A stretch of 64,000 bases of DNA, from assembly GCA_900315675.1 (NCBI GenBank), contig OMZY01000010.1:1-64000 (forward strand), written 5' to 3'. A model generated the notes under the pieces. That model saw only the letters and a program-made list of their open reading frames with translations. It ran no database searches and was not told the origin of the DNA. Each line of letters starts with the position of its first letter. The first letter of the stretch is position 1. The position numbers were made by a program, and so were the translations under genes. Origin of the DNA: an uncultured Eubacteriales bacterium (GTDB lineage: Bacteria > Bacillota > Clostridia > Christensenellales > Aristaeellaceae). Positions 23,005-57,175 of this stretch are shown here, piece after piece.

Positions 23005-23110
23005 ATGCCGGAGGCATAATTCATACGCCGCAGGCGTAATTCATATGGCCGCAGGCCATAATTCATATGCCGCAGGCATAATTCATTTTCGAAGCACCTG
23101 TGCTTCGAAA
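23005..23110. repeat. Hairpin array with AATTCAT linkers, block 1
   Basis: Five consecutive hairpins: ATGCC-GGA-GGCAT, ACGCC-GCA-GGCGT, ATGGCC-GCA-GGCCAT, ATGCC-GCA-GGCAT and TTTCGAAGCA-CCTG-TGCTTCGAAA. Each pair is separated by AATTCAT. Stems differ while pairing is kept. Confidence 0.9.
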
Positions 23111-23196
23111 TATTAGCTTGGCTAAATCCATACATCATTGTTCCTTCTTTGTATACAGAACACATACAAAAAACACTGTCCTGAACCCGGGCTTTA

Positions 23197-23226
23197 TTGC
23201 GGATCCCGGGCTTTTCATAGTAGAAT
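23197..23226 (+). promoter_or_regulatory. Possible promoter of DUF3798 transporter operon
   Basis: TTGCGG, 18-base spacer, TAGAAT, about 55 bases before the start codon. Confidence 0.45.
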
Positions 23227-23280
23227 AGGCACATCAAACTTGGTAACCAGGAAAACCAAAGAGAAAGGAAGCATAAAACC

Positions 23281-24483
23281 ATGAAGAAACTGCTGTCCCT
23301 GATCCTGGCGCTCGCCATGATGCTGACCGTGATGGCCGGCCTGATGGCTTCCGCCTCCGCCGAAGAAGATACCTTCCATATCGGTATCGTCACCGGTTCC
23401 GTTTCCCAGTCTGAAGACGACCGCCGCGGTGCGGAAGCCTTCCAGGAAAAGTACGGCGAAGACCGCGTCAAGCTCGCGATCTATCCCGACAACTTCTCTG
23501 AAGAGCTGGAAACAACCATCCAGACCATCGTGAACCTGTCTGCTGATCCTGACATGAAGGCCATTATCGTGAACCAGGCAATTCCCGGCACTGCGGAAGC
23601 TTTCCGTCTGGTCAAGGAACGCCGTCCGGACATCATCTGCATTGCCGGTGAGTCCCACGAAGACCTGCCCGTCATCGGTGCCGCCGCCGATCTGGTCACC
23701 AACAATGACTTCGTTGCCCGCGGCTACCTGATGATCCGCACCGCTCACGAGCTGGGCTGCGACACCTTCGTGCACATCTCCTTCCCCCGTCATATGAGCT
23801 ACGAGACCATGAGCCGCCGCGTGGCCATCATGAAGGAAGCCTGCAAGGAATTCGGCATGACTTTCGTGCTGGAGACCGCTCCCGACCCCTCTCAGTCTGA
23901 CGTCGGTACCCCCGGTGCTCAGGCTTACATTCTGGAGCACGCTCCCGAATGGATCGAGAAGTACGGCAAGAACTCCGCTTACTTCTGCACCAACGACGCT
24001 CACACCGAGCCCCTGCTGAAGCAGCTGCTGGCTTACGGCGGATACTTCATCGAAGCTGACCTGCCTTCTCCTCTGATGGGCTATCCGGGCGCCCTGGGTC
24101 TGGACCTGACCGGCGCCAACGGCGACTTCGAAAAGATCCTGTCCTCTGTTGAAGAAGCTGTTGTGGCCAAGGGCGGCGAAGGTCGTTTCGGCACCTGGGC
24201 TTACAGCTACGGCTACACCGTGTCCGCCGGTCTGGCGCAGCATGCCTACAACGTCATCAAGGGCGAAAGCGAACTGTGCGATATCGACGATATCGCCAAA
24301 GCTTTCCAGGAATATTCTCCCAAGGCTGAATGGAACGGCTCCGGCTATACCGATGCTACTACTGGCGTAAAGAGTGAGAACGTGTTCCTGGTCTATCAGG
24401 ACACCTACATCATGGGCAATCCCGGCCACTACATGGGCGCGACCCAGATTGAGATTCCGGAGAAGTACTTCACCGTGAAGTAA
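23281..24483 (+). CDS. DUF3798 periplasmic-binding-type lipoprotein/exported protein of ABC importer
   Basis: A 400-residue secreted protein with signal peptide KKLLSLILALAMMLTVMAGLMASASA. The mature part resembles a type I periplasmic-binding fold (FHIGIVTGSVSQSEDDRRGAEAF and ADPDMKAIIVNQAIPGTAEAF read in parts) and matches the DUF3798 family, which occurs next to CUT2/BMP-type ABC genes. It should deliver substrate to the ATPase and permeases encoded downstream. Its cysteine is not at a lipobox. A GC-rich hairpin follows before the ATPase gene, typical of keeping the binding protein in excess. The ligand is unknown. Confidence 0.88.
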   Translation: MKKLLSLILALAMMLTVMAGLMASASAEEDTFHIGIVTGSVSQSEDDRRGAEAFQEKYGEDRVKLAIYPDNFSEELETTIQTIVNLSADPDMKAIIVNQAIPGTAEAFRLVKERRPDIICIAGESHEDLPVIGAAADLVTNNDFVARGYLMIRTAHELGCDTFVHISFPRHMSYETMSRRVAIMKEACKEFGMTFVLETAPDPSQSDVGTPGAQAYILEHAPEWIEKYGKNSAYFCTNDAHTEPLLKQLLAYGGYFIEADLPSPLMGYPGALGLDLTGANGDFEKILSSVEEAVVAKGGEGRFGTWAYSYGYTVSAGLAQHAYNVIKGESELCDIDDIAKAFQEYSPKAEWNGSGYTDATTGVKSENVFLVYQDTYIMGNPGHYMGATQIEIPEKYFTVK

Positions 24484-24500
24484 TCCCTGACAGTTTTACA

Positions 24501-24527
24501 GGGGGAGGTCACCGCCTCCCCCCTTTT
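24501..24527 (+). terminator. Intercistronic attenuating hairpin after binding-protein gene
   Basis: GGGGGAGG / CCTCCCCC stem followed by CTTTT, between the DUF3798 gene and the ATPase. Partial termination would favour the binding protein. Confidence 0.7.
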
Positions 24528-24563
24528 CATGAATTACGGCATATATCAAATAATAAGGACGGA

Positions 24564-26156
24564 ATGCAGATGAGTCAGAGCGCACCGCTTCTGGAAATGA
24601 AGAACATCCAAAAGGATTTCTTCGGTAATCAGGTGCTGACGGACATCAACCTTACCCTGCGGGAAGGCGAAGTGCTCGGTCTGGTCGGCGAAAACGGCGC
24701 CGGCAAGTCCACCCTGATGAAAATCCTTTTCGGCATGGATGTAATCCGCGATACCGGCGGATACAGCGGAGATATCCTTCTGCACGGACAGAAGGTGGAA
24801 TTCAAGACGCCCTTTGAGGCGCTGGCCGCTGGAATCGGCATGGTCCATCAGGAATTCTCCCTCATTCCCGGCTTTACGGCCACTGAGAATATCCTGCTGA
24901 ACCGGGAGCCGAAAAAGAAAAGCGTGGTCTCCGAGATTTTCGGTGACCGTCTTGATACCCTGAATCGGAAAGAAATGACCGAAAAATCCGAAAAAGCCAT
25001 CGAGAAGATGGGCGTTCATATTGACGGATCCATGGTCATTCATGATATGCCCGTCGGGCACAAACAGTTTACGGAAATCGCCCGGGAGCTCAGCAAGGAC
25101 CAGCTCAAGCTGCTGATCCTGGATGAGCCTACCGCCGTGCTGACGGAGAAGGAAGCGGAAGCCCTGCTTGCCTCCATCCGGGGCATGGCCGCCCGCGGCA
25201 TCGCCGTCATCTTTATTACCCACCGCCTGCAGGAAATCCTGGATGTGTGCGACAAGGTCGTCGTCATGCGCGACGGCTATGTGGTGCAGGATGTCCCCGC
25301 GAAGGATACCGGCATCACGGAAATCACCCGCTGGATGGTCGGCCGTTCCGTGGACTCCGCGGCCAAGGCGGATATCCGGGACAATCCGGACGCTCCCATC
25401 GCCCTGTCCATCCGGAAACTCTGGGTGGATATGCCCGGTGAAACCGTCCGCAATGTCAATCTGGACGTGCGGGAAGGTGAAATCCTGGGCATCGGCGGTC
25501 TCGCCGGCCAGGGCAAGCTTGGCATCCCCAACGGCATCATGGGCCTCTATGAAGCTGGCGGTGAGGTCACCCTCCGTGGGAAGAAGATTCCGCTCAACCA
25601 GCCCCGTGCCTGCCTGGACGCCTCCATGGCCTTTGTTTCGGAAGACCGCCGCGGCGTAGGCCTGCTGCTGGACGAGACCCTGGAATGGAACATTGCCTTC
25701 CCGGCCATGCAGATCCAGAACAAGTTCCTGAAGAACTACCTGGGCGGCCTGGTCAAATGGCGGGATGAGAAAGCCATTCACGATATTACTCAGCGGTATA
25801 TTGACGAGCTGGCCATCAAGTGTACCAGTTCCAAGCAGAAGGCGAAGGAACTCTCCGGCGGCAATCAGCAGAAGGTCTGCCTGGCCAAAGCCTTCGCCCT
25901 GGAACCCGGCTTCCTCTTCGTTTCCGAGCCTACCCGCGGCATTGACGTCGGCGCCAAGGCGCTGGTGCTGGAAGCGCTGAAGAAGTTCAACCGGGAAAGC
26001 GGCGTCACCATCGTGATGATCTCTTCCGAGCTGGAGGAGCTTCGCCAGACCTGCGACCGGATCGCCATTGTTTCCGGCGGCCGTGTAGCCGGCATCCTGC
26101 CGGCTACAGAATCTGCTGAACAGTTCGGTTTGCTGATGGTCAGCCAGGTTGTGTAA
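24564..26156 (+). CDS. Sugar/nucleoside-type ABC importer ATPase (two NBDs)
   Basis: A 530-residue protein with two nucleotide-binding domains, as in RbsA/MglA/YufO. Domain 1: Walker A GENGAGKST (about 43-51), degenerate signature RELSKDQLKLL, Walker B LLILDEPTAVL. Domain 2 (from about 280): the Walker A region is changed to GLAGQGKLG, the signature ELSGGNQQKV is intact, and Walker B is FLFVSEPTRGIDVG, with S replacing D. This asymmetric pattern is usual in the family. Two ATGs six bases apart are possible starts. It should energise the two permeases that follow. Confidence 0.93.
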   Translation: MQMSQSAPLLEMKNIQKDFFGNQVLTDINLTLREGEVLGLVGENGAGKSTLMKILFGMDVIRDTGGYSGDILLHGQKVEFKTPFEALAAGIGMVHQEFSLIPGFTATENILLNREPKKKSVVSEIFGDRLDTLNRKEMTEKSEKAIEKMGVHIDGSMVIHDMPVGHKQFTEIARELSKDQLKLLILDEPTAVLTEKEAEALLASIRGMAARGIAVIFITHRLQEILDVCDKVVVMRDGYVVQDVPAKDTGITEITRWMVGRSVDSAAKADIRDNPDAPIALSIRKLWVDMPGETVRNVNLDVREGEILGIGGLAGQGKLGIPNGIMGLYEAGGEVTLRGKKIPLNQPRACLDASMAFVSEDRRGVGLLLDETLEWNIAFPAMQIQNKFLKNYLGGLVKWRDEKAIHDITQRYIDELAIKCTSSKQKAKELSGGNQQKVCLAKAFALEPGFLFVSEPTRGIDVGAKALVLEALKKFNRESGVTIVMISSELEELRQTCDRIAIVSGGRVAGILPATESAEQFGLLMVSQVV

Positions 26157-26171
26157 AGGGGGGAGAATGCA

Positions 26172-27215
26172 ATGAAAGAAAAATTGAAAGACTTTATTGC
26201 CAGTTTCGGACTTCCCCGGCTGATCATTTCAGGTTTTCTGCTGGCGTTATTTATTTTATCTCCCATTGTGGGTGCGGATCTGCCCATGCAGATTTCAAAC
26301 GTCATCAACCGCTTCAGCTGGAATGCAGTGCTGGTACTGGCCATGGTCCCCATGGTGCACTCCGGCTGCGGCCTCAACTTCGGTCTGCCGCTGGGAATCG
26401 TTGCCGGTCTGCTGGGCGGCACACTAAGTCTGGAATTTGGTTTCACCGGCCCGATGAGTTTCCTGATGGCAGTGATTATCGCCACCCCCTTCGCCATGCT
26501 CTTCGGTGGAGGCTATGGCTGGTTGCTGAACCGGATTAAAGGCGGCGAAATGATGATTGCCACCTACGTAGGTTTCTCCTCCGTGTCCTTCATGTGTATG
26601 ATGTGGCTCCTGCTGCCCTATCACAAGGCGGATATGGTCTGGGGGCTCTCCGGAAAAGGACTGCGTACCACCATCTCCCTGGAAGGCTACTATGACAAAG
26701 CGCTTTCCAACTTCTTGCAGATCAACATCGGCAAAATCTCCATCCCCGTCGGCGCACTGCTGCTGTTCGCGGTGCTGGCCTTCGCCATGTGGGCGTTCCT
26801 GCACACCAAAACCGGTACGGCCATGACCGCCGTCGGCTCCAATCCAACCTTCGCCAAGGCAGCCGGTATCCAGGTGGATAAAATCCGTATGCTCTCTGTC
26901 ATGATGAGCACCTGGCTGGGTGCGGTTGGTATTCTGGTATATGAACAGGGTTTCGGCTTTATCCAGCTGTATAATGCACCTTTTTATATGGCCCTGCCCG
27001 CTGTCTCCGCCATCCTGATCGGCGGCGCTACGGTCAACAAGGCCAGCATCATGAACGTGATCCTGGGTACCTTCCTGTTCCAGGGTATCGTCACCATGAC
27101 GCCTACCGTAATGAATAATATGATTCATATGGATATGAGCGAGGTTATTCGTATGATCGCTTCCAACGGCATGATCCTCTATGCGCTGACCCGCAAAACG
27201 GAGGTGAGAAGATGA
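26172..27215 (+). CDS. ABC importer permease 1 (BPD_transp_2 family)
   Basis: A 347-residue permease with eight to ten membrane helices. The segment HSGCGLNFGLPLGIVAGLLGG resembles the conserved N-terminal part of RbsC/YufP-like permeases, and GTAMTAVGSNPTFAKAAGI matches the EAA-like cytoplasmic loop (R-TAxGxNxxAAxxxGI) that docks on the ATPase. A GGGGGGAG site precedes the start. It overlaps permease 2 by four bases (ATGA), so the two are probably made in equal amounts as a heterodimer. Confidence 0.92.
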   Translation: MKEKLKDFIASFGLPRLIISGFLLALFILSPIVGADLPMQISNVINRFSWNAVLVLAMVPMVHSGCGLNFGLPLGIVAGLLGGTLSLEFGFTGPMSFLMAVIIATPFAMLFGGGYGWLLNRIKGGEMMIATYVGFSSVSFMCMMWLLLPYHKADMVWGLSGKGLRTTISLEGYYDKALSNFLQINIGKISIPVGALLLFAVLAFAMWAFLHTKTGTAMTAVGSNPTFAKAAGIQVDKIRMLSVMMSTWLGAVGILVYEQGFGFIQLYNAPFYMALPAVSAILIGGATVNKASIMNVILGTFLFQGIVTMTPTVMNNMIHMDMSEVIRMIASNGMILYALTRKTEVRR

Positions 27216-28357
27216 GCAATATCAGCAAACCGGCCGGCAGCCGCAGTGTCGGAAAAACTGTCGGCTCCTTCCTTGCCAACAATTCGGTGCCGATCATGTT
27301 CATCCTCATCTGCGCCGTCTGTATCCCGCTTTCCGGTTTTTCCCTTGATTATCTGCTCAATGAAATCATCACCCGCCTGGGCCGGAACGCGTTCCTGATC
27401 CTGAGCCTGCTGATCCCGATCATGGCCGGTATGGGCCTGAACTTCGGTATGACCCTGGGTGCCATGGCCGGCGAAATAGCCCTGATCTTCGTCTCCGACT
27501 GGCAGATCTGGGGCATCCCCGGTGTCATCCTTGCCATGATCGTTTCCGTCCCCTTCTCCGTGCTGCTGGGGCTTTTCTGCGGCAAGATCATGAACATGGC
27601 CAAAGGCCGGGAAATGATCACCAGCTATATCATTTCCTTCTTCATTAACGGGGTATATCAGCTCATCGTACTGTATATGATGGGTTCTGTTATCCCGATT
27701 GCTCACAGTTCCATCAAGCTGCCCCGCGGCTATGGTATCCGGAATACTGTTGGACTGCTGAATATGCGTCAGTGCATTGACAACCTGCTGGCCATTCGTG
27801 TGGGTGGAGTCAAGATTCCCGCGCTCACCCTGCTGATCATCGTCCTCATGTGCCTTCTTATCATTTGGTTCCGCCGCACCAAGCTGGGCCAGGATATGCG
27901 CGCTGTGGGTCAGGATATGCAGGTAGCCCGGGATGCCGGTATCAAGGTCGAGCGGACCCGGATCATTTCCATCATCATCTCCACCGTGCTGGCCGGTTTC
28001 GGTATGATCCTGTACCTGCAGAACATCGGAAACCTGTCCACCTATTCGGCTCACTCCCAGGTGGGTATGTTCTGTATCGCGGCCCTGCTGGTCGGCGGCG
28101 CCTCCGTGGACCGTGCCTCCATCGGCAACGTGTTCCTGGGCGTCATCCTGTTCCACCTGATGTTCATTGTTGCTCCGCAGGCCGGCGCGAAGATTACCGG
28201 CGACTCCATGATCGGTGAATACTTCCGCGTCTTCGTCTCCTACGGCGTTATCACAATTGCCCTGATCATGTATGAAATGAAGAAGCGCCGCCAGAAAGCC
28301 AATATCGGTGAACAGCTGGCCCTGGCCCAGAAGGAGGAAGTGCAGCATGAACAATAA
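27212..28357 (+). CDS. ABC importer permease 2 (BPD_transp_2 family)
   Basis: A 381-residue permease paralogous to its neighbour. It repeats the MGLNFGMTLGAMAGEIALI segment, and the docking loop is LGQDMRAVGQDMQVARDAGI. The C-terminal tail (about 355-381) is long, charged and cytoplasmic (MKKRRQKANIGEQLALAQKEE), where permease 1 ends abruptly. Its last eleven bases overlap the start of the small membrane-anchored protein downstream. It forms the translocation channel with permease 1. Confidence 0.92.
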   Translation: MSNISKPAGSRSVGKTVGSFLANNSVPIMFILICAVCIPLSGFSLDYLLNEIITRLGRNAFLILSLLIPIMAGMGLNFGMTLGAMAGEIALIFVSDWQIWGIPGVILAMIVSVPFSVLLGLFCGKIMNMAKGREMITSYIISFFINGVYQLIVLYMMGSVIPIAHSSIKLPRGYGIRNTVGLLNMRQCIDNLLAIRVGGVKIPALTLLIIVLMCLLIIWFRRTKLGQDMRAVGQDMQVARDAGIKVERTRIISIIISTVLAGFGMILYLQNIGNLSTYSAHSQVGMFCIAALLVGGASVDRASIGNVFLGVILFHLMFIVAPQAGAKITGDSMIGEYFRVFVSYGVITIALIMYEMKKRRQKANIGEQLALAQKEEVQHEQ

Positions 28358-28814: not shown

Positions 28815-28832
28815 TCCCGGATTCAAAAATGT

Positions 28833-28866: not shown

Positions 28867-29288
28867 CAGTCATAAACTATAACGTTTGTGAGTTTTCAGT
28901 CGTAAATTATCAGTTATTCTCCCAGCCCGCACACATTCAGGACCCCAACCGGAACGCCAAGGAGTAAAGTGTCATTCTGAGCGCAGCGCAGCGGAGTCGA
29001 AGAATCTCCCTGCCCGCATACGTTCGGGAACCCAACCGGAACCACGCTGCCTCCACATGTCATTTCGACCAAGGCAGCTTGCTGCCGCGTGGAGAAATCT
29101 CCTCCGAAGAAATAAACCTTCAACATTTACGGAACATCTTTTGTAAAGAAACCATACTAATTCTGCATTCTTCATTGTTAATTGTTAATTTGTCATCGCT
29201 TTTGCGATGACACTGTCTCCCCCGCCGCAGCGGATGTTTCATTCAAAGGATGGCGAAGCCATCCATCCACCATTATTCCTTATAAATT

Positions 29289-29560
29289 GTCATCCTGAGC
29301 AGGGCGAAGCTCTGAGGACTGCCAGTGGCAGAAATCTCGTCAGAGCTGAGGTCAACCGAAGCAAGCGAGCTGCCCAGTGGGGAGTGAGGGAATCGGTGAC
29401 CCAGTGGGTCATTTGCCGAAGGCAAAAGCGCCCTGAGCGAGTCAATCGAAGCAAGAAGCAGGTTGAAGCGCCAGCGATGCCTGCTGCGCCGACTGAGATT
29501 GCGGAACAGTCGCGCCGACTGAGGTTGCGGACAAACGAAGTGAGCGCAGTCGAAGGATCT
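29289..29560. repeat. Long interspersed repeat (GCGCCCTGA block), copy 1
   Basis: Shares long stretches with 31741-31890 and 37780-37880: TGACTGCCAGTGGCAGAAAT-like start, GAGGTCAACCGAAGCAAG, GCGCCCTGARCGARTCAAT and GCGCCGACTGAGRTTGCGGA. Internally it contains short palindromes such as CTGCCAGTGGCAG and GCCGAAGGC. Confidence 0.75.
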
Positions 29561-29669: not shown

Positions 29670-29694
29670 TCCTCAATTCTTCATTCTTCATTTT

Positions 29695-37257: not shown

Positions 37258-37354
37258 CATTCACCGCAGGTGAATAATTCATATCGTCGAAGACGATAAT
37301 TCATATTGAGTCGCTTGCGGCTCAATAATTCATATTGCCAAAGGCAATAATTCA
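37258..37354. repeat. Hairpin array with AATTCAT linkers, block 2
   Basis: TTCACC-GCA-GGTGAA, ATCGTC-GAA-GACGAT, ATTGAGTCGC-TT-GCGGCTCAAT and ATTGCC-AAA-GGCAAT, each followed by AATTCAT. The first stem differs from blocks 3, 5 and 6 (TTCGCC/GGCGAA) by a paired compensatory change. Confidence 0.92.
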
Positions 37355-37779
37355 TTCCCCTGTCCCGCCGCAGCGGTTAATTGTGCATTGTTAATTGTTA
37401 ATTGTTCATTTGGGCTTTGCCCATTGTCCCCTCTGTCACATTTCTGCTATCCATAACCTCCACGTTATAGTGTCATTCCGACCGGAACGAAGTGGAGTGG
37501 AGGAATCCCTTACTACGTCCGAAGGACGAATAATTGTGCATTGTTAATCATTGTTAATTGTTAATTATTCATTTGGCCTTTGCCCACTGTCCCTCTGTCA
37601 CGTTCCCGCTCTCTATAACCTCCAAAATGTCATCCTGACCAAGGCCGCTTGCGGCCGCGTCGAAGGATCTCCTCCGAAGATATAGACCTTCTGTAACCGG
37701 AACATCTTCTGCATAGAAACCGCACCAATTATGAATTATGAATTGTTGAGCATCTGTCCAAATCTTTGATTTGGGGCGA

Positions 37780-37880
37780 AGAGCCGATGACTGCCAGTGG
37801 CAGAAATTTCATCGGATCTGAGGTCAACCGAAGCAAGTGAGCTGCCCAGTGGGCAGTCGCGCCGACTGAGGTTGCGGAAT
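37780..37880. repeat. Long interspersed repeat, copy 3 (shortened)
   Basis: Matches copy 1 in GATGACTGCCAGTGGCAGAA, GAGGTCAACCGAAGCAAG, GAGCTGCCCAGTGGG and GCGCCGACTGAGGTTGCGGA, but lacks the GCGCCCTGA middle. Confidence 0.72.
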
Positions 37881-37949
37881 ACAGATGCCATGCTACAGCC
37901 GTCAAAGTGCCTTTGGCACTTTGGTAACGGCGATCGCAGAATTGTGAAT

Positions 37950-41427: not shown

Positions 41428-41496
41428 ATTCGCCTTTGGCGAATAATTCATATCGTCGAAGACGATAATTCATATTGCCGCAGGCAATAATTCATT
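41428..41496. repeat. Hairpin array with AATTCAT linkers, block 3
   Basis: TTCGCC-TTT-GGCGAA, ATCGTC-GAA-GACGAT and ATTGCC-GCA-GGCAAT with AATTCAT linkers; the ATTGAGTCGC unit of block 2 is missing. Confidence 0.92.
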
Positions 41497-41533
41497 CCAG
41501 CCCTGCCAGGGCCTTTCGCCCTGTCAGGGCTGG
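41497..41533. repeat. 16-bp palindrome overlapping chitinase stop codon
   Basis: CCAGCCCTGCCAGGGC pairs with GCCCTGTCAGGGCTGG around CTTTC. The single mismatch falls in the stop codon of the chitinase on the minus strand. Confidence 0.85.
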
Positions 41534-42738
41534 AGTCCCTGGTGCATTTCCGTAATCATCGGCCAGTCATTGTCGATGCTGTCTCCATGCACTTCCCACA
41601 CGATCAGGCCGCCCAGGCCCTTTTCCTTGATGTAGTCCAGCTTGGCCTGCAGGGATTCAGCGCTTTCATAGGTGATGAAGTTGAGATATTCAGCCGCGTC
41701 CGGATCATCGTTCCACAGCCAGGCAGCGCCCTTTTCCGCGTCATAGCCCTTATGCCATCCGGGAGTGCCTTCCGGAACAGCCGCCTGCTCTGTCGCCATC
41801 AGGTCATGCCAGGTATAATCTTCAATCGCGTCCCCGGGAGCGCCCACGGTCTCCTCCGCCGCCTCCCGCATCTTCCAGCCATGGCTGTACAGCGGGGAAC
41901 CGATGGTGATCTTTTCCGCCGGCACGCCCTGCTCCAGCAGGTACTTCACCGCCGTGTCCGCGGAAACTTCGCCCAGCAGCGCCGTGTGATGGCCCGTGTT
42001 CTCTTCCCAGGAGCCGGCCATGTCATAGGTCATCAGGTTGATCTTGTCCACATACGGATGCAGGGAGGCATAGTCCTGCTTGCTCAGGGACCAGCCGACA
42101 GAGGCGCCCGCGCACACGGTCAGCACCTTGTTCCCGGCGCCGAAGTGCTCGTCCAGCGCTTCCCGCAGTTCCTTCAGCAGCAGCGTGTAGTTGGTCCAGT
42201 CATCGCCCACCACCGGGCATCCTTCATCGTTTTCATCCTCGGGTTCCCGTTCCACGCCGGGATACTCCCAGTCGATGTCCAGGCCGGACAGGAAAGGATA
42301 TTCGTCCAGGGTGTCCAGGCAGCTCTTGATGAAGGAGCCGCGGCTTTCAGCCGTCAGCGCCATCTCGGAGAAATGGCCGGAGTCGGTCCATCCGCCGATG
42401 GAGATCAGGATCTGCTTGTCCGGATACTTTTCCGCGGCGGCCGCGTACTGCGGGAAATGCGCCACGGCGTTGTCCGGGTCCGTATCCGCCCAGGGATCAG
42501 TGGAAACTACGGCAAAGCCGCCGTCCTGGGGAACAACTTCCCAGAAGGCGTGGTTCACGCAGTCAATCCGGTCCCAGGGCAGGTTCGTCACGTCCTGCCG
42601 GGCGTCGGAATAGATGTTCCAGTTCGGGAAGTATACCGTCACACCGGGTCCTTTCTTCGCTGTCTCCGCAGCGGCCGCGCCCAGGAGCAGGGCAAGTGTC
42701 AGGGAAAGAGTCAGTAACACGCAAATCAGCTTTTTCAT
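41524..42738 (-). CDS. Secreted glycoside hydrolase family 18 (chitinase-like)
   Basis: A 404-residue GH18 enzyme that would cleave beta-1,4-linked N-acetylglucosamine chains such as chitin, or act as an endo-beta-N-acetylglucosaminidase. Signal peptide ICVLLTLSLTLALLLGAAAA. The catalytic motif is complete: GLDIDWEYP at 152-160 with the proton donor Glu158 and aspartates 154 and 156. Other barrel strands are VTVYFPNWNIY, ILISIGGWTDS, INLMTYDM and ITIGSPLYSHGW. No carbohydrate-binding module follows. The start is supported by GGAGGG nine bases upstream and a promoter (TTACAG-N16-TAGAAT). Confidence 0.95.
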   Translation of the reverse strand: MKKLICVLLTLSLTLALLLGAAAAETAKKGPGVTVYFPNWNIYSDARQDVTNLPWDRIDCVNHAFWEVVPQDGGFAVVSTDPWADTDPDNAVAHFPQYAAAAEKYPDKQILISIGGWTDSGHFSEMALTAESRGSFIKSCLDTLDEYPFLSGLDIDWEYPGVEREPEDENDEGCPVVGDDWTNYTLLLKELREALDEHFGAGNKVLTVCAGASVGWSLSKQDYASLHPYVDKINLMTYDMAGSWEENTGHHTALLGEVSADTAVKYLLEQGVPAEKITIGSPLYSHGWKMREAAEETVGAPGDAIEDYTWHDLMATEQAAVPEGTPGWHKGYDAEKGAAWLWNDDPDAAEYLNFITYESAESLQAKLDYIKEKGLGGLIVWEVHGDSIDNDWPMITEMHQGLQP

Positions 42739-46904: not shown

Positions 46905-46973
46905 TATGGAACTCCACAACGTAAAGATATCAGTGAAACACTATATAATTGTGCATTATGCATTGTGCATTGT

Positions 46974-48464
46974 TCATTTGTCATCGCTTTGCGATGACCC
47001 GCCGTCCCTGAACATTGAGAACTTCTCCATCGGATATTTCTCCAGGTTCTCCAGGATCTTCCGGTCGTCCGCCTTGTTCAGCAGCGCCTGCCGGTCCCGC
47101 AGCACCTGGGCTTCCGCCTGGTGCTTGGAAGGTCCGCCGATGCAGCCGCCGGGGCAGATCATGCCCTCGATAAAGTCCTCCTCCAGCTTTCCGGCCCTGA
47201 GCAGCATCAGGGCTTTTTTGCATTCGTCGCCGCCGGAGCACTGCCGCAGCCGGATGCCTTCCGTATCCTCTCCCATCTCCCGCATGGCCTGCAGCACCGC
47301 CGCCGCGACGCCGCCGCTGCCCGCGAACTGTTTGCCGAACAGGGAGGATTCCTGGTACTCCTCTTCCACCGGTTCAATTTTGATCTCCCGGGAATCCAGC
47401 ATCGCCACAATTTCTCCGTAAGTCAGGGCGTAGTCCGGCCGGTCCGCGATGAACTCGTTCAGCGTCTCGCCCTTCTTGGCGATGCAGGGCCCGATGAACA
47501 CCGTGACGCAGTCCGGATCCAGGCACTTCAGGTACCGGGATACGGCGACCATGGGGCTGACGGTATTGGACTTGTACAGTTCATATTCCTTGGGGAAATG
47601 GTGCCGCAGCATGGAGATGAACGCCGGGCAGCAGGAGGTGGTCATCTTCCGCCCTTCCTTCCGGGCCTCGATCCACTCGCGGGCTTCATAGGCCGCGGTC
47701 ATATCGCCGCCCAGGCCCACCTCCACCATCTCCGCGAAGCCCAGCTTCTTCAGCGCCGCGCGGATGGCCGCCATGGTGATGCCGCTGCCGAACTGACCTT
47801 CCGTCGCCGGGGCGCACATGGCGATCACCCGCTTGCCTTCCCGGATCTTCCGGATGATCTGCGTCGCGTAGATTTTGGAACCCACCGCGCCGAAGGGGCA
47901 GCTGTGGATGCAGTGGCCGCAGTGGATGCACTTTTCATCGTCGATATAGCAAAGGCCGTTCTCGCCGTAGGAAATGGCGTCCACCGGGCAGGCCTTCTTG
48001 CAGGGCCGGGTCATGTGGAGAATGGCGCCGTAGGGGCAGGATTTCGCGCACAGCCCGCAGGATTTGCACTTGGTTGGATCGATCTTCATCCGGGTGTCGC
48101 CGGGGCTGATCGCCCCGAAGCGGCAGGCGTTCAGACAGGCTTTGCCCAGGCAGAACCTGCAGATATCCGTCACCAGGTAATCCTGGATCGGGCAGTCGTC
48201 GCAGGCGGCGGGGATCACCGCCACCACGTTTTTTGATTCGGAGTTCACGTCCGGCGCCAGGCCCATGGCCAGCCGGATCCTGCCCCGGATAATCTCCCGT
48301 TCCTTATAGATGCAGCAGCGGTATTCCGGTTTGGGCCCGGGGATCAGCTTCTGCACCAGCTTTTCACAGCTTTCCGCGTTCAGGTCATCCTCCCAGGCCA
48401 GGCGGCACACCTCCCGCAGCACCTGGTGTTTCAGTTCCACAATCCCTTTGTCGTTGGTCATCAT
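46974..48464 (-). CDS. Monomeric [FeFe] hydrogenase (group B-like)
   Basis: A 496-residue iron-only hydrogenase, probably catalysing reversible proton reduction with ferredoxin. The N-terminal half (about 80-200) contains several cysteine clusters for 4Fe-4S centres (ACDDCPIQDY, CKSCGLCAKSCP, CIHCGHCIHSCP). The H-cluster motifs are TTSCCPAF (275-282), IGPCIAKKGE (324-333, with G for the M of the common MPC) and CPGGCIGGPSK (437-447). This pattern fits the group B enzymes of clostridia rather than the common group A. No hydE/F/G maturation genes lie in the window. The start ATG follows GGAGG by nine bases. Confidence 0.88.
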   Translation of the reverse strand: MMTNDKGIVELKHQVLREVCRLAWEDDLNAESCEKLVQKLIPGPKPEYRCCIYKEREIIRGRIRLAMGLAPDVNSESKNVVAVIPAACDDCPIQDYLVTDICRFCLGKACLNACRFGAISPGDTRMKIDPTKCKSCGLCAKSCPYGAILHMTRPCKKACPVDAISYGENGLCYIDDEKCIHCGHCIHSCPFGAVGSKIYATQIIRKIREGKRVIAMCAPATEGQFGSGITMAAIRAALKKLGFAEMVEVGLGGDMTAAYEAREWIEARKEGRKMTTSCCPAFISMLRHHFPKEYELYKSNTVSPMVAVSRYLKCLDPDCVTVFIGPCIAKKGETLNEFIADRPDYALTYGEIVAMLDSREIKIEPVEEEYQESSLFGKQFAGSGGVAAAVLQAMREMGEDTEGIRLRQCSGGDECKKALMLLRAGKLEEDFIEGMICPGGCIGGPSKHQAEAQVLRDRQALLNKADDRKILENLEKYPMEKFSMFRDGGSSQSDDK

Positions 48465-48489: not shown

Positions 48490-48593
48490 ATTCGCCGCAG
48501 GCGAATAATTCATATCGTCGAAGACGATAATTCATATTGCCGCAGGCAATAATTCATCGCAGTGAGTGCCATCGCTGCGCGATGCCACTCACT
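48490..48593. repeat. Hairpin array with AATTCAT linkers, block 4
   Basis: TTCGCC-GCA-GGCGAA, ATCGTC-GAA-GACGAT and ATTGCC-GCA-GGCAAT with linkers, then a longer stem CAGTGAGTGCCATCGC / GCGATGCCACTCACTG with one mismatch. It lies between the histidine kinase and hydrogenase genes, in an otherwise co-directional pair. Confidence 0.9.
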
Positions 48594-48654
48594 GTCCGTA
48601 CTTCCCGACCGCCTCGTCCACCGTCATTTCCCCGGTGCCGATCAGACATTTTTC

Positions 48655-51392: not shown

Positions 51393-51611
51393 ACGTACAT
51401 ATCATTGCTGAAGCGATGACGCTTTCTCACGTTCGGGATCCCAGCAGGAACTCCAAATTCTGAACCAAGTATCACCTGAGGGTGTCATTCCGACCGGAGC
51501 GAAGTGGAGTGGAGGAATCCCTTACTATGTCCGAAGGACAAATCATTCTGTACTTGTCGCCCTGCTATGTATTAATCAGGATCTCTCCCGCCGCAGCGGA
51601 TAAATCAAAAA

Positions 51612-51640
51612 GAAAAAGCTCCCTCAGGAGCTTTTTCATC
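51612..51640 (-). terminator. Terminator of exported SH3-like 157-residue gene
   Basis: AAAAAGCTCC / GGAGCTTTTTC stem with a TGAG loop on the minus strand. Confidence 0.88.
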
Positions 51641-51674
51641 CGCCAATTGTTCATTGTGCATTGTGCATTGTGCA

Positions 51675-52148: not shown

Positions 52149-52273
52149 ATCAGTACCTCTTTCTGAACCGGCGGTCTGGCAGCGGGCTGCCGTGTTTCCG
52201 ACCCGCCGCCCGCTGCGAACCGGTTCATCTATATATACGTATCAGAAAGCCGTTTTGTTCCTTTTTCCGTGTC

Positions 52274-52765
52274 TCAGCCCAGCGGCCGGGTCTCGATCAC
52301 TTCATAGTACATGGGGGTATAGCCTTCCGGAGCGGTCTTCAGCAGCTCCGCCAGGATCTCCTCGTCGTCCACCTTTTTCAGCACCATCTTCGCCCCGTTG
52401 GTGGCGGTCATCAGCTGCGCGTCCGCGGCGGGCAGCGCGCCGTACATGGCCATCAGCTCGGAGCCGTTTTCAATGTTCGCCGTGGTCTGGTTCGGGTTGA
52501 TGCCCAGCTGGACGTAGTACACGTCCCCGATCTTCTGCATGCCGTAGACAAAGTAGGCGATGTTCGGCGTGCCGTCCGGGTTCACGGAAGCCACGGCGTA
52601 GAAGCCGGTGTAGGAGTTGACGGCGTTCATCAGCTCATCGCCAGTCAGGGCGCCGTAGTAGTTGGCGACGGAAGCGGTGGTCACGGCGTCCGTGGTTTCC
52701 GCCGCGGCGCACGCAACGGCCAGCAGAAGCACGCAGGCCAGCATAACAGATATGATTTTTTTCAT
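52274..52765 (-). CDS. Exported PPOX-type split-barrel-like protein
   Basis: A 163-residue secreted protein with signal peptide ISVMLACVLLLAVACAAA. The mature part resembles the pyridoxamine 5'-phosphate oxidase-like flavin split barrel: FYAVASVNPDGTPNIAYFVYG (strand-turn-strand start), GDVYYVQLGINPNQTTANIENGSELMAMYG (the K/Q-TxxNI motif). Such proteins are almost always cytosolic and bind FMN or F420, so an exported member is unusual. Alternatively it may be an unrelated beta barrel. Promoter TTGACA-N18-TAAAAT; GGAGG precedes the start. Confidence 0.75.
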   Translation of the reverse strand: MKKIISVMLACVLLLAVACAAAETTDAVTTASVANYYGALTGDELMNAVNSYTGFYAVASVNPDGTPNIAYFVYGMQKIGDVYYVQLGINPNQTTANIENGSELMAMYGALPAADAQLMTATNGAKMVLKKVDDEEILAELLKTAPEGYTPMYYEVIETRPLG

Positions 52766-52793
52766 GGGGATTCCTCCTTTATTATTTGTATGT

Positions 52794-52823
52794 ATTTTAC
52801 AGTACTTTTCCTGTTTTTGTCAA
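52794..52823 (-). promoter_or_regulatory. Promoter of exported split-barrel protein gene
   Basis: TTGACA, 18-base spacer, TAAAAT on the minus strand, close to the divergent promoter at 52856. Confidence 0.7.
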
Positions 52824-52855
52824 TCTTTTCAATGCATTGAGCGTCTCTTTCCTCG

Positions 52856-52884
52856 TTGACCTCCCGATAGAAATCCGGTATAAT
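52856..52884 (+). promoter_or_regulatory. Promoter of exported acidic protein gene
   Basis: TTGACC, 17-base spacer, TATAAT; about 130 bases before the start codon. Confidence 0.8.
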
Positions 52885-53018
52885 GTCCCCGACCGGAACG
52901 GAAAAAAATAGAAAACGCAGTCCCGACTGCCAGCTCCTTTTTTTCTGCGTAACAATATATGCGGGCCGGGAAAAAGCACCCCGCTGCGGCCCGCGGGACA
53001 CAAAGGAGGAAAATGACG

Positions 53019-53783
53019 ATGAAAAAACTGCTTGCGCTGCTGCTGGTTCTCTGCCTCACCCTCGCTGCTGCATCCGTTTTCGCGGAAGAGGATTATGAGG
53101 AAGACGAAGAGTTCGGTTACTATCCGGATGAGTATCCGGAATCCCTGGTTTATGTCAACACCTGGGTCGCCGAAGACGGCGACTGGCGCATCGAAGTATT
53201 CGCCGAGGACGGCGGTCTCAAGCCCATGATCGTCCACCGGCTGGGAGACAATAAAGAGGATGTCTGGGAATATGCCATGGCCCTCAATCCCGAAAAGACC
53301 GCGCTGACCGCGGTGCCCTTCGGCCTGCATTACCGCCAGGACACTGTTTCCGGCGACTGGGACGAAACCTACTATGAGGATGGGGACGCGGTGCTGACCA
53401 TCACCGAGGAAGGGACCCTGCTCTGGGAGGACCTGAAGGAAGACGCGGGCAAGGACCTGGAGTTCGAGCCCATCGGCAACTTCTACGGCGGCCGCTGGAT
53501 GAAGGACGATATCGAAGTCATCTTCTATGACTGGTATGAAGGCCAGTATGATATCCGCTGCTATCAGTACGATGAGAACGGCAATATTCTGGCAGACGCC
53601 ATCCTGAAGGGCGACTACGATCCCGAAACGGACACCGTCACCGCGGAAGGCTACTTCGATCCGGACGAACCCTTCACCGTCACCTTCTCCTATGATGAGC
53701 ACAACAACGTGGTCTGGACCCAGGACGGCGAAAGCACCACCATGGAATACAGCTACAACGTTGACAGCGTTGAAAACGGCTGA
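53019..53783 (+). CDS. Acidic exported protein of unknown function
   Basis: A 254-residue secreted protein with signal peptide LLALLLVLCLTLAAASVFA, followed by a very acidic N-terminus (EEDYEEDEEFGYY). The rest is beta-rich and repetitive, with paired strands such as WVAEDGDWRIEVFAEDGGLKPMIVHRLGD and WMKDDIEVIFYDWYEGQYDIRCYQYDENGN (read in parts), and two halves that look like duplicated beta-sandwich units. No family recognised. The second ATG of three was chosen because AAAGGAGG lies nine bases before it. Own promoter and terminator. Confidence 0.82.
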   Translation: MKKLLALLLVLCLTLAAASVFAEEDYEEDEEFGYYPDEYPESLVYVNTWVAEDGDWRIEVFAEDGGLKPMIVHRLGDNKEDVWEYAMALNPEKTALTAVPFGLHYRQDTVSGDWDETYYEDGDAVLTITEEGTLLWEDLKEDAGKDLEFEPIGNFYGGRWMKDDIEVIFYDWYEGQYDIRCYQYDENGNILADAILKGDYDPETDTVTAEGYFDPDEPFTVTFSYDEHNNVVWTQDGESTTMEYSYNVDSVENG

Positions 53784-53804
53784 TCAGCCTCATCAGTCCC
53801 ACCC

Positions 53805-53832
53805 CGCGCCGGCCCCGCCGGCGTTTTTTATA
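53805..53832 (+). terminator. Terminator of acidic exported protein gene
   Basis: CGCCGGC / GCCGGCG stem with a CCC loop, then TTTTTTATATTTT. Confidence 0.9.
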
Positions 53833-53876
53833 TTTTCAATCGCATGCGAATAAAAAGCCAACGATCCCAAGTGCAT

Positions 53877-53953
53877 ACGGGAATGTGACAGAGGGGACAG
53901 ACGAAGCGTCACGCAAAGTGTGACACTTGGTCTGTCCCCTCTGTCACGTTCCC
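53877..53953. repeat. Large GGGACAGAC inverted repeat, copy
   Basis: GGGAATGTGACAGAGGGGACAGAC pairs almost perfectly with GTCTGTCCCCTCTGTCACGTTCCC (each over 20 bases, so key parts only: GTGACAGAGGGGACAGAC / GTCTGTCCCCTCTGTCAC). An inner stem GCGTCACGC / GTGTGACAC forms the tip. Confidence 0.88.
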
Positions 53954-53980
53954 GCTTTCCATAGCCTCAACTAACTCTCA

Positions 53981-54111
53981 CATTCGCCTTTGGCGAATAA
54001 TTCATATCGTCGAAGACGATAATTCATATTGAGTCGCTTGCGGCTCAATAATTCATATTGCCGCAGGCAATAATTCATTCCCCCGGCCCTACCGCAGGCA
54101 ATAATTCATTC
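53981..54111. repeat. Hairpin array with AATTCAT linkers, block 5
   Basis: TTCGCC-TTT-GGCGAA, ATCGTC-GAA-GACGAT, ATTGAGTCGC-TT-GCGGCTCAAT and ATTGCC-GCA-GGCAAT with linkers, then a second partial CCGCAGG unit. Confidence 0.93.
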
Positions 54112-54143
54112 CGAAAAGCCTTCGTTCAATCGAAGGCTTTTCG
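54112..54143. repeat. 13-bp palindrome around oxidoreductase stop codon
   Basis: CGAAAAGCCTTCG / CGAAGGCTTTTCG around a 6-base loop that holds the stop codon on the minus strand. Confidence 0.88.
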
Positions 54144-55247
54144 CAGCTCCCCTTTCTTCAGCCCGTTCATCTTCCCTGCCCTCGGCCAGTTCATATTCGC
54201 CATCATCATATACATCCACCGCGGGAAACCCTGTACATCTGCGTATATATCTCCCGCTTTATCCCCGTTCCGGATCGCCCCGGCCAGCTTTTCCATCCCT
54301 TCTCCGACATGCTTCCCGGGTCCCTGCCCGTTCGCGAACATCTTCAGCATCTCTCCGGCCCCGATAGCGATCCCGCCGCAGTATTCATACCCGCACTTTT
54401 CGCACCATTCCTTCACCATGCTCAGCAGGTTCTTCAGCTGATGGCTTTCATAAAAGCCCATGTTGGAAACCACATAGACCTTCTTCCTGCCGCCGGGCTC
54501 CCGCTCCAGCCGTTCCATCACCCGTAGCATCTGGGAAGGAATTCCGTCCACATACAGCGGCATACCCAGCACCAGCGTTCCCGCGGATAAAAGCGTCCGG
54601 CTCGTTTCCTCCGGCCTGGTAGCTGAAAGATTGACAATCTCTTCTGTCCCCAGCCGTCCGGCCAGGGCGGTCAGGAACTTCCGGGTATTCGATCCGTTGC
54701 CCCGCAGGCTCCCGTTCAGCAGAATCATCCCGTCCTGCTCACAGCCCGCCTCCTGCGTTTTCGCCGTTTCCGCCTCGCAGGGAATAAACTTCAGTTCTTT
54801 GATCCAGCCCCGGAAGTTCAGGCACACCGCCTCCACATAGGCTCTTGCCTTTGCCTTTTCATCCTCTGTAAAGGCGCTTCCCCGAAAGATGAAGGTAATG
54901 GGCTTCTCCTCCGGATACCGCTTCTGGTGATGCATCTCCCCGTGATGGATTTCCATGTACGGAAGCACCCAGCCGATACTCCGGTCCATCACATTCTTCA
55001 CAAAGCTGCTGAAGCCGCCGTAGGTGTACCGGCTGATCACCGTAACCTCTTCCGCCTGGTGGATCAGGGCGCCCATGCGGTCGTATCCGTCTTTGATCAC
55101 GCACTGTCCCGGGGTTTTGAGCCAGCAGCCGAAGCAGCCCACGCAGGGTTTGATGTTCCCCTTGTCGGAGATCACCTCATACCCCTCATACTGCTGCGCA
55201 ACCTCTTCCCATTCCTTTTCGTTCAGATCATGAATCAGTAATTTCAT
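54126..55247 (-). CDS. Tandem flavodoxin-fold NAD(P)H-dependent oxidoreductase
   Basis: A 373-residue protein with two flavodoxin-like halves. The first (1-185) has the NADPH-dependent FMN reductase pattern of clostridia: CVGCFGCWLKTPGQCVIKD (conserved cysteines) and SRYTYGGFSSFVKNVMDR. The second half starts at about 187 with ILLNGSLRGNGSNTRKFL, the FMN phosphate-binding loop of another flavodoxin unit, followed by LGMPLYVDGIPSQMLRVMERLE. Single-domain members are about 180-200 residues, so this is a fusion or duplication. It may reduce quinones or nitro compounds. The start ATG has AGAGG seven bases upstream. The stop lies in a perfect palindrome. Confidence 0.88.
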   Translation of the reverse strand: MKLLIHDLNEKEWEEVAQQYEGYEVISDKGNIKPCVGCFGCWLKTPGQCVIKDGYDRMGALIHQAEEVTVISRYTYGGFSSFVKNVMDRSIGWVLPYMEIHHGEMHHQKRYPEEKPITFIFRGSAFTEDEKAKARAYVEAVCLNFRGWIKELKFIPCEAETAKTQEAGCEQDGMILLNGSLRGNGSNTRKFLTALAGRLGTEEIVNLSATRPEETSRTLLSAGTLVLGMPLYVDGIPSQMLRVMERLEREPGGRKKVYVVSNMGFYESHQLKNLLSMVKEWCEKCGYEYCGGIAIGAGEMLKMFANGQGPGKHVGEGMEKLAGAIRNGDKAGDIYADVQGFPRWMYMMMANMNWPRAGKMNGLKKGELRKAFD

Positions 55248-55349
55248 AAACAACCTCTTTCCGTCGTATTGCAGGCATATGATAGGGCTGGAAGGATGAA
55301 AAAGTAAGGAGCCAAACCTTAAAGGATTATTAATTCTTCCGCCATAAAC

Positions 55350-55382
55350 AAAAAAGGACGGAAGGATTCCTCCTTCCGTCCC
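55350..55382 (-). terminator. Terminator of ACT-metallo-beta-lactamase gene
   Basis: GGACGGAAGGA / TCCTTCCGTCC stem followed by TTTTTT on the minus strand. Confidence 0.88.
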
Positions 55383-55387
55383 GGCTT

Positions 55388-56833
55388 TCAGTCATCGCTG
55401 AATGCAATATGCAGTTCCTTCGCCGCTCCGTGCGCGCCGAACACTTTCCATTCTCCCGTGCCCAGGCGCTGCATCACCGCGCCGCGTTCCTTCGCGCACA
55501 GGGCCGGATCCGTATCCACGGAGGTCATGAGCACCGGCGCGTACTGGTTGTACGCCGCCTGCTCCCGGGTCATGCCGTGCATGTTCACATAGATGTCCCC
55601 GGTAAAGGCGATCTTGTGCTGGTAGTCAATCAGCACCGTCTCGCCCGGCAGGTGGCCGCCCATGCCCTGGTAAACCTCAAAATGCAGTTCCCCGAAGTCG
55701 AAAAAGCCCATCTGCTCCAGCGGGTTTGCCTGTTCCCCCTGCGTATCCCACAGGGTTTTGATCTTTTCCGGTTCCGCAGGCCGGTAGAAGGTCAGCGCCT
55801 TGCAGATGCTCACATAGGGCTTATGCAGCGGGTTCTGCTCCCGGTAGCCGTTTTCGCCCCTGGCTTCCAGTTCCAGGCAGTCCCGGGTTTTCCGGCTGGC
55901 CAGGATCTCGTCAAACAGCGGCAGCAGTCCGCAGTGGTCCACGTCCGCATGAGTGATGAAGATCCGCTTTTTCATTTTGTCGTATTCCGGGATCAGGCTG
56001 CGGAACAGGCTTTCCATCTCTTCCCGGTACAGGGCGTAGCCGCTGTCCACGAACAGGATCTCCCCGCCGCTGCGGATAATCGTCGTGTTGCTGCCGCAGG
56101 GCGGCTCGATCAGGATAATCTCCGTATCCTTTGTGATCTGGTGCCGGGAAATTCGCGGCAGGAACGCCTCGCCCCGGCAGACGGAAAGCAGCTCCGCAAA
56201 GCGGCTGATGCTGTCAAAGGTCTTGAAGGGAGAAAGCCCCTTTTCGTCCAGCATCTGCATCACCAGGTTGGAGTTCACCAGCAGGTCGTTCCGCTTTTCC
56301 TCCGGCAGGCCGGTCAGCTGCATCAGGCCGGAAACAAAGGACTGATAGAAAATGCTGTTGTCAAACACCCGCTCCGTGTGGTTATAGTCCAGCACCCGCG
56401 CCGGGCACAGCTCCTGCACCTCCCGCAGGAACTCTTTCAGCTTCTCCTCGCTTTCCACAAACAGGCCCATCTTGAAGGCCTGGTAGGCGGAGCCGTTTTC
56501 CTGGGAGCTGATGTAGGAAATATTCAGGTGATACCGGTGGATCAGCTTCAGCACGTCCGTCACGGCGCCGGGCACGTCCCGCAGCATGAACTCCAGCAGC
56601 ACAATGCTGTTCTCGTTTTTATCCGTCTGCAGGTACCCGATCTTCCGCAGCTCGCTGTCCGCCTTCGCCAGCTGTTCTTCCTCCCCGTCCGCGTCAATGA
56701 ACAGGGTATGGGAGTCCACCGCCTTATTGTAGCTGACCCGGGTGATGTTGATACCCAGGGACGCAAAGCATTCGCTGGCCTTCAGGAAGGCCCCGATATG
56801 GTCCGGCATCGTCGTGATGTAAGTCTTCTTCAT
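55388..56833 (-). CDS. ACT-ACT-metallo-beta-lactamase fold fusion protein
   Basis: A 481-residue protein with an unusual build. Residues 1-70 are an ACT domain (TYITTMPDHIGAFLKASECFASLGINI, read in parts), about 77-150 a second (LEFMLRDVPGAVTDVLKLIHRYHLNISYI, read in parts), and from about 235 a metallo-beta-lactamase fold: TEIILIEPPCGSNTTII, ITHADVDHCG (294-302), GGHLPGE (392-398), AFTGD (409-413) and a final histidine in GAHG. The usual HxHxDH is here HADVDH, so one metal ligand is replaced by Asp. ACT domains bind amino acids, suggesting ligand-controlled hydrolase activity. The start at MKKTYIT was chosen from the ACT alignment. Promoter TTGACT-N17-TTTAAT. Confidence 0.85.
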   Translation of the reverse strand: MKKTYITTMPDHIGAFLKASECFASLGINITRVSYNKAVDSHTLFIDADGEEEQLAKADSELRKIGYLQTDKNENSIVLLEFMLRDVPGAVTDVLKLIHRYHLNISYISSQENGSAYQAFKMGLFVESEEKLKEFLREVQELCPARVLDYNHTERVFDNSIFYQSFVSGLMQLTGLPEEKRNDLLVNSNLVMQMLDEKGLSPFKTFDSISRFAELLSVCRGEAFLPRISRHQITKDTEIILIEPPCGSNTTIIRSGGEILFVDSGYALYREEMESLFRSLIPEYDKMKKRIFITHADVDHCGLLPLFDEILASRKTRDCLELEARGENGYREQNPLHKPYVSICKALTFYRPAEPEKIKTLWDTQGEQANPLEQMGFFDFGELHFEVYQGMGGHLPGETVLIDYQHKIAFTGDIYVNMHGMTREQAAYNQYAPVLMTSVDTDPALCAKERGAVMQRLGTGEWKVFGAHGAAKELHIAFSDD

Positions 56834-56878
56834 GGGCGAAACCACCCTCCCGCGCTGAGATTGGGATTTATCTTACTG

Positions 56879-56907
56879 ATTAAAGTACACTCTATGTCAA
56901 TAGTCAA
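56879..56907 (-). promoter_or_regulatory. Promoter of ACT-metallo-beta-lactamase gene
   Basis: TTGACT, 17-base spacer, TTTAAT on the minus strand. Confidence 0.65.
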
Positions 56908-57053
56908 ACAAAATTTATCATCGCTGTGCGATGGCATTCTCCCCCGCCGCAGGCGGAATAATTGTTAATTGTTCATTGTTAATTGTTCATTTGGGCTTCG
57001 CCCACTGTCCCTCTGTCATCTTCTCGTTTCCGCAGCCTCCACTAAATGATCAC

Positions 57054-57175
57054 ATTCGCCTTTGGCGAATAATTCATATCGTCGAAGACGATAATTCATA
57101 TTGAGTCGCTCGCGGCTCAATAATTCATATTGCCGCAGGCAATAATTCATTCCACCAGCCTGCGGCTGGTGGCAG
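57054..57175. repeat. Hairpin array with AATTCAT linkers, block 6
   Basis: TTCGCC-TTT-GGCGAA, ATCGTC-GAA-GACGAT, ATTGAGTCGC-TC-GCGGCTCAAT and ATTGCC-GCA-GGCAAT with linkers, then CCACCAGCC-TGC-GGCTGGTGG. Same order as blocks 2 and 5. Confidence 0.93.

Follow-up and report, generated by a model that had tools for sequence, protein, structure and literature searches.

Introduction

Parts of three papers (PMC8266576, PMC3733652, PMC6006769) describe repetitive extragenic palindromic (REP) elements and their TnpA-REP transposases by a tag 5' of the hairpin, a strand-specific fold, a loop preference, perfect stems and many copies. Here we report arrays of tagged hairpins that match this description in a 64,000-nucleotide stretch of contig OMZY01000010.1 (the window), from an uncultured Eubacteriales bacterium of the family Aristaeellaceae. 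A sequence-only reading of the window had noted six blocks of short hairpins separated by the heptamer AATTCAT, and had proposed either a REP-like mobile element or a structured RNA. We give a probability of roughly one half to the explanation that the arrays are tagged DNA hairpins working like REP elements, with another tag and layout and with a putative enzyme and function. Our literature search turned up no publication that we recognised as describing these arrays, which is no proof of their absence from print.

Arrays of tagged hairpins across the genome and its relatives

All six blocks of the window are rows of near-perfect hairpins with AATTCAT between them, on the + strand, and the positions first given for them were correct to within one base. 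The window contains 34 copies of AATTCAT where 11.35 would be expected, and 0 of 100 shuffles gave as many as 34. We searched the window's own genome (G000; 3.62 Mb, 57 contigs) for two copies of AATTCAT flanking a spacer that is not itself heptad repeats and found 65 matches, compared with 0 for the reversed pattern. Almost every spacer listed for this genome is a hairpin, and the stems are diverse. In G132, a genome of the same genus with a 3.41 Mb contig, there were 53 matches. A duplication confined to this contig is therefore rejected, since the search of the genome and its relatives found arrays far beyond the window.

To describe the unit, we collected segments after TCAY and before AWWTCAY in 1250 kb of fetched loci from four same-genus genomes (G000, G132, G163 and G185). 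The strand was fixed by the tag and not by the loop, and the loci were mostly picked around arrays, so densities in them do not stand for whole genomes. In all, we obtained 393 distinct hairpins, each with one mismatch or none, in 186 arrays; an earlier run had found 324 perfect hairpins among 813 segments versus 0 of 35 in reversed sequence. In each unit, a near-perfect hairpin is preceded immediately on its 5' side by a 7-base tag that ends in TCAY. Stems run from 5 bp up, 7 bp being the most frequent length, and the loop is commonly a 3-base GNA closed by C-G. An array typically has three to five hairpins in one direction, and often closes with a hairpin whose sequence overlaps the 3' end of the following gene.

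The linker had been described as constant. It is largely so within one array, and differs between arrays and species: orthologous loci carry the same kind of array with ATTTCAC/ATTTCAT or ATATCAT/ATATCAC. In the fetched loci, AATTCAT accompanies 106 of 129 hairpins in G000; G132 has 72 AATTCAT and 58 ATTTCAC among 154 hairpins; and ATTTCAC/ATTTCAT accompanies 112 of 138 in G163 and 134 of 172 in G185. Because this mix differs by genome, the linker is a lineage-specific tag (AATTCAT, ATTTCAY or ATATCAY) and not a constant. The tag changed between lineages at common array positions, and such a change between close species offers a natural experiment in which to look for the cognate factor.

Across 45 genomes of the genus, the two-linker pattern had at least 19 matches in 6, one or two in 6, and none in 33. 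AATTCAT arrays with other stems occur in three further genera of the family (g7, g17 and g38). Outside the family, such arrays were seen in one viewed genome (G313) and in a contig titled Oscillospiraceae bacterium SIG450, which had no blastn match to the fetched loci at 1e-20. Class-wide pattern counts for the most part resemble chance when set beside the reversed-pattern control; G400, G472, G538, G421 and G619 stand out by count alone, and G410 has one isolated site. Viral contigs had 0 matches to one strict two-hairpin pattern. The presence of the same array kind in other Clostridia examined suggests that it may be widespread and overlooked. As a separate observation, the AATTCAT hairpin arrays of genus g17 (G086 and G146; loci L147, L148, L149 and L151) stand in head-to-head pairs around a short core, and two viewed loci are bounded by terminator-like sequence of the GCTGTCTCAAAA type.

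Stems drift while pairing is kept

A perfect 7-bp stem is present in 111 of 135 distinct 17-mers, whereas shuffling the arms gave a mean of 2.55 and a maximum of 7. We then compared 119 orthologous array pairs chosen by flank similarity (71 by both flanks), and matched up 194 hairpins of equal length in them, of which 70 were identical. At the stem positions of these hairpins, 1221 pairs were unchanged and 150 showed two-sided Watson-Crick changes, while a further 13 had gained or lost G.T, 7 had changed on one side in other ways and 2 fell outside these classes; hairpins with more than one mismatch had been excluded beforehand, which lowers the count of broken pairs, and genome pairs are not independent. 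Stems drift while pairing stays. Blocks 2 to 6 of the window are near copies of one array and add little independent covariation, so the evidence comes from other arrays and genomes. It supports the proposal that covarying stems imply selection or a copying mechanism, with the perfect stems and double changes on its side, and with template switching as an active rival explanation of some of the pattern.

That rival, in its full form, gives the arrays no function. Template switching would make and correct the palindromes, and the arrays would be by-products of linker slippage and hairpin repair. Parts of two papers support its ingredients: perfect hairpins and compensatory changes can both arise by template switching (PMC8794818), and quasipalindrome correction is strand-biased in E. 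coli (PMC7202029). At array ends, the terminal hairpin pairs gene-end codons with a non-coding arm, and the pairing is kept where the codons differ between species. The closest genome pair, G163 and G185, argues the other way: of 33 changed hairpins, 18 differ by one stem pair and 9 by two, as in stepwise change. The tag is conserved and array copies lie at unrelated sites, which also weighs against this rival. Together with the loop and wobble data below, these points make it an unlikely account of the arrays as a whole.

The tagged strand folds, probably as DNA

Loops are strongly polar with respect to the tag. Of 207 distinct triloops, 126 are GNA and 9 are the reverse complement TNC, with per-genome ratios of 40 to 4, 43 to 3, 47 to 2 and 55 to 1; C-G closes 110 of the 126 GNA loops. 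GNNA accounts for 40 of 72 tetraloops, with a pyrimidine at the third base in 29 and a purine in 11. Among distinct hairpins with a single mismatch, G.T (25) outnumbers A.C (5; p 0.0003). In arrays that point away from the replication origin (see below), loops on the tag strand are 22 GNA, 0 TNC and 2 other. Loops thus follow the tag strand in these arrays too, so the polarity is a property of the element rather than the result of a mutation bias of the replication strand. This polarity and the tolerance of G.T over A.C both speak against the template-switching rival.

The tagged strand is the strand whose fold is kept. It probably folds as DNA, given the GNA to TNC ratio, GNNA loops that for the most part have no third purine of the RNA type, and the excess of G.T over A.C. 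GNA and GNNA loops are unusually stable in DNA, according to parts of PMC6479982 and PMC8373063 that cite the original measurements. For bacterial palindromic repeats, it is usually difficult to say which strand folds and whether the acting form is DNA or RNA. Here, hundreds of stems, a fixed tag, loop polarity and wobble bias allow the folding strand to be named from sequence alone.

Arrays mostly point toward the inferred replication origin

The GC skew of G132, in 9-kb samples, was negative in 9 of 10 between 1.02 and 2.56 Mb and positive in all 10 others. All three of its 16S genes are minus-strand genes, found at 1.32, 2.47 and 2.57 Mb. From skew and 16S strands, we placed the origin near 2.62 Mb. 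The best dnaA match in this genome (contig C1, 1306829; L127) lies about 1.3 Mb from that position. In G163 and G185 the origin was set just beyond the outermost 16S gene, a choice partly guided by the array strand changes. The arrays directed at the inferred origin number 59 of 63 in G132, 44 of 49 in G163 and 44 of 49 in G185. A recount on the fetched loci with all linker types gave 44/47, 40/47 and 46/52; many arrays are orthologous between genomes, so these counts are not independent samples. In most arrays, by the same counts, the tagged strand is the C-rich, leading-strand template, and GC skew along the array strand is negative in 158 of 173 arrays with genes called on both sides. Several of the away-pointing exceptions are one arm of a head-to-head array pair.

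In those 173 arrays, with crude open reading frame (ORF) calls, left-hand genes are evenly split (87 +, 86 -) and right-hand genes are 112 - and 61 +. Gene orientation was rejected as the cause of array orientation, the leading-strand share of coding sequence being about 53% (hand sum). Array orientation follows replication rather than genes, and this origin-directed orientation ties the repeats to replication.

A third explanation would make the arrays signals of chromosome polarity or topology, whose orientation guides segregation, fork handling or supercoil relief while the hairpins extrude as cruciforms. The origin-directed orientation in three genomes fits this idea, as does a cluster in G132, where the interval 1.005-1.087 Mb, some 90-170 kb away from the inferred terminus, contains 31 of the 53 AATTCAT-type matches. 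We nevertheless consider it improbable. Only 6 of 45 genus genomes are array-rich, 6 having one or two matches and 33 none; spacing is uneven, and covarying stems would be unnecessary.

Copying and terminal hairpins

Blocks 2 to 6 are copies of a single array, as is an array on contig C18. Identity is 93-97% between copies of matching length, and blocks 3 and 4 have one hairpin-plus-linker unit fewer. Past its first three bases, the right flank is only 14-41% identical among the copies, giving a sharp right edge. Left-flank values are rough since three blocks were cut one base off at the left, and block 5 and the C18 array have an upstream repeat in common (61%). Arrays have thus been copied within this genome. 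In G091, a genome with 0 pattern matches, the four orthologous spaces viewed are short and have no array, and a search of 100 kb turned up no tagged hairpin; at one of the four sites, G163 also lacks the array.

A hairpin of at least 8 bp stands to the right of the last linker in 67 of 183 arrays, compared with 32 of 1860 random positions. Where a minus-strand gene ends nearby, the stop codon lies inside the hairpin or linker for 45 of 57 terminal hairpins, and the linker's own TCA (read as TGA) is the stop codon at 24 of 133 such gene ends. Hairpins of at least 10 bp cover the stop codon at 29 of 176 gene ends near arrays versus 46 of 1037 elsewhere. Nine terminal hairpins of equal length were compared between species: four were identical, and the rest had 17 double Watson-Crick changes and 3 one-sided or other changes. 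At locus L110 (about 6898-6990; contig C48 of G000), the array ends directly before an ORF starting MSRTIGIDLGTTNS, dnaK by eye, and the terminal hairpin contains GGAGG.

The structured RNA of the sequence-only reading is less likely. It would consist of tandem hairpins like those of 3' untranslated regions or terminators that end, protect or regulate transcripts, with orientation as a by-product. The stop-codon hairpins and the GGAGG before the dnaK-like ORF suit such a role, as do right-hand genes that end toward the array in 112 of 173 cases, terminator-like A/T runs on some long array hairpins (by eye) and G.U pairs, which are at home in RNA. The strand that folds, however, is the tagged one, antisense to the right-hand genes, whose 3' ends most often abut the arrays; left-hand genes are evenly split. 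Most GNNA loops do not have the purine that GNRA carries at its third base, orientation tracks replication and not genes, and Rfam had 0 matches in the window at gathering score. On balance an RNA function seems unlikely.

Candidate transposases and proposed mechanism

If the arrays work like REP elements, the acting form would be single-stranded DNA. A protein would read the tag, the stem shape and the loop rather than the letters of the stem. The best candidate reader may be a HuH Y1 nuclease of the TnpA-REP kind, which would copy arrays to new sites. Insertion or survival mainly in one orientation to the fork could account for the orientation, and some of the perfect pairing may come from template switching, with the terminal hairpins as the most plausible place for it.

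A transposase of the REP-associated type had been suggested as the thing to look for. Y1 genes resembling REP-associated tyrosine transposases (RAYT) were found in all 10 genomes searched, but 15 of the 16 in array-rich genomes have no array hairpin within 1 kb. No Y1 orthologue is both confined to and common to all array-rich genomes examined; the c-type is present in G000, G163, G185 and G066 and not in G132. A Y1 transposase was therefore rejected as the obvious driver, as these genes are present in all 10 genomes with no array-tracking orthologue and no flanking arrays. As a side observation, array-free G091 has four strong IS200-type transposase matches (contig C1, 440323, 840723, 1196126 and 3042474; 155-aa frames, 135-139 bits), unlike the array-rich genomes searched.

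Several results weigh against a REP-like mechanism. An array hairpin lies within 1 kb of only 1 of 16 Y1 genes in five array-rich genomes and of 0 of 5 in array-poor ones, and an a-type Y1 orthologue is also found in array-free G091. The two Y1 proteins tested scored 73.8 and 69.3 bits, below the NCBIfam REP-transposase cut-off of 80. IS200/IS605 enzymes act on the lagging-strand template, as part of PMC6006769 describes, and the tagged strand here is on the opposite side. By either ViennaRNA table, DNA or RNA, the observed triloops come out no higher than other triloops (mean rank 0.500 and 0.496, respectively). These tables do not separate triloops, so we discarded folding energy as a test of DNA versus RNA, and the DNA argument rests on the published loop data; a small tag-strand energy advantage under both tables probably comes from wobble pairs. 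Stop codons covered by terminal hairpins, together with the surplus (112 to 61) of right-hand genes that end at the array, also leave room for an RNA role.

The form of a REP-like mobile element is nonetheless there: short tagged palindromes, intergenic, in many copies, with a sharp right edge and array-free sites in G091. What departs from it is the tag, which is not GTAG/CGTC, and the 15 of 16 Y1 genes without a nearby array. We tentatively suggest that Clostridia have a separate class of hairpin arrays, acting as single-strand DNA and polarised with respect to replication, in which a factor would read the heptamer tag and a DNA-type loop, stems would be free to drift, the tag would switch genome-wide between lineages and gene ends would be drawn into the terminal hairpin.

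The blocks of the window

Block 1 (23005-23086, + strand, as are all that follow) has four hairpins with stems ATGCC, ACGCC, ATGGCC and ATGCC and loops GGA/GCA, each followed by AATTCAT. Block 2 (37259-37355), block 5 (53982-54078) and block 6 (57054-57150) have four hairpins each and AATTCAT linkers, with the stems in the order first described. The two-arm change reported for block 2 is real, its first stem being TTCACC/GGTGAA. The stem ATTGAGTCGC/GCGGCTCAAT is also present, with the correction that it has one T.G pair inside. Block 3 (41428-41495), which lacks the ATTGAGTCGC unit, and block 4 (48490-48557) have three hairpins each with AATTCAT linkers. Block 5 continues into an extra half-hairpin and linker (54079-54109), apparently a partial duplication.

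A further, locus-specific hairpin that had been overlooked follows every block except block 2, where none was found. It is TTTCGAAGCAC/GTGCTTCGAAA after block 1 (23087-23110) and lies at 48560-48594 after block 4. After block 3 (41496-41534), it holds the stop codon (41524) of the ORF at 41524-42738 (-). By eye, the loop of the hairpin after block 5 (54112-54143) holds the stop codon (54126) of the ORF at 54126-55253 (-), and block 6 is followed by CCACCAGCC/GGCTGGTGG (57152-57172).

Other repeats share the window. A dispersed repeat at 29276-29531 and 37728-37903 (an 84-nt pair at 29302/37774 is 88% alike) is 79-90% identical to copies in loci of G132, G163 and G185. Heptamer tandem repeats of the ATTGTTA, ATTCTTA and ATTGTGC types occur, for example at 3626-3667, 20658-20721, 37380-37421 and 46935-46998, some of them directly after terminator-like hairpins. 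Pure AATTCAT/AATTCAC heptad runs elsewhere in G000 have the same heptamer as the array linker. Intergenic repeats of the TGTCATTYCGACC...GGAATCYC kind (12963, 20314, 20463, 29007, 37461, 41250 and 51473) often adjoin CTGTCCCCTCTGTCACGTTCC repeats.

Comparison with known systems

Like CRISPR arrays, these arrays alternate a constant short repeat with variable units. CRISPR repeats are long and identical and their spacers unique and non-palindromic; here the repeat is 7 nt long, the units between repeats are palindromic, and the arrays are dispersed, with 186 in the loci fetched from four genomes. Like intrinsic terminators and 3'-untranslated-region hairpins, the arrays lie at gene ends and some overlap the stop codon. 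Unlike them, they stand several in a row with a constant tag, also occur upstream of genes, and fold on the strand antisense to the right-hand gene. By eye, many appear to lack a T-run: A/T runs are present on some long hairpins and absent from the short ones and several terminal hairpins. The ends of IS200/IS605 elements, with their TnpA-IS200, resemble the arrays in having a guide tetranucleotide 5' of a small hairpin that is processed as single-strand DNA. The arrays have no two-ended, gene-carrying element, and their orientation is opposite to the lagging-template rule.

The closest likeness is to the REPs with GTAG/CGTC tags, bacterial interspersed mosaic elements (BIMEs) and REPINs and their RAYT/TnpA-REP enzymes, as parts of PMC3733652 and PMC8266576 describe them. 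These too are short palindromes with the tag 5' of the hairpin, intergenic, near gene 3' ends, in many copies and with a strand-specific single-strand fold. The arrays, 186 in the fetched loci, are likewise intergenic, with ORFs flanking on both sides. The REP tag, like the tag here, can supply the stop codon of the next gene; some REPs are perfect palindromes, and the Y1 genes are single-copy and housekeeping-like. The arrays differ in their 7-nt tag WWTCAY, same-direction rows, stems almost free to vary, GNA loop and mostly origin-directed orientation. Inverted pairs, which mark BIMEs and REPINs, appear to be a minority here: some arrays stand head to head, but most are same-direction rows. 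The foot of the hairpin carries TCAC/TCAT; although 5' TCAY was part of the hairpin search, the same tags also stand out in unguided scans for neighbouring hairpins. There is no GTAG/CGTC tag and no Y1 gene flanked by its own repeats as in a REPtron, and we therefore describe the arrays as working like a REP system rather than filing them as REPs.

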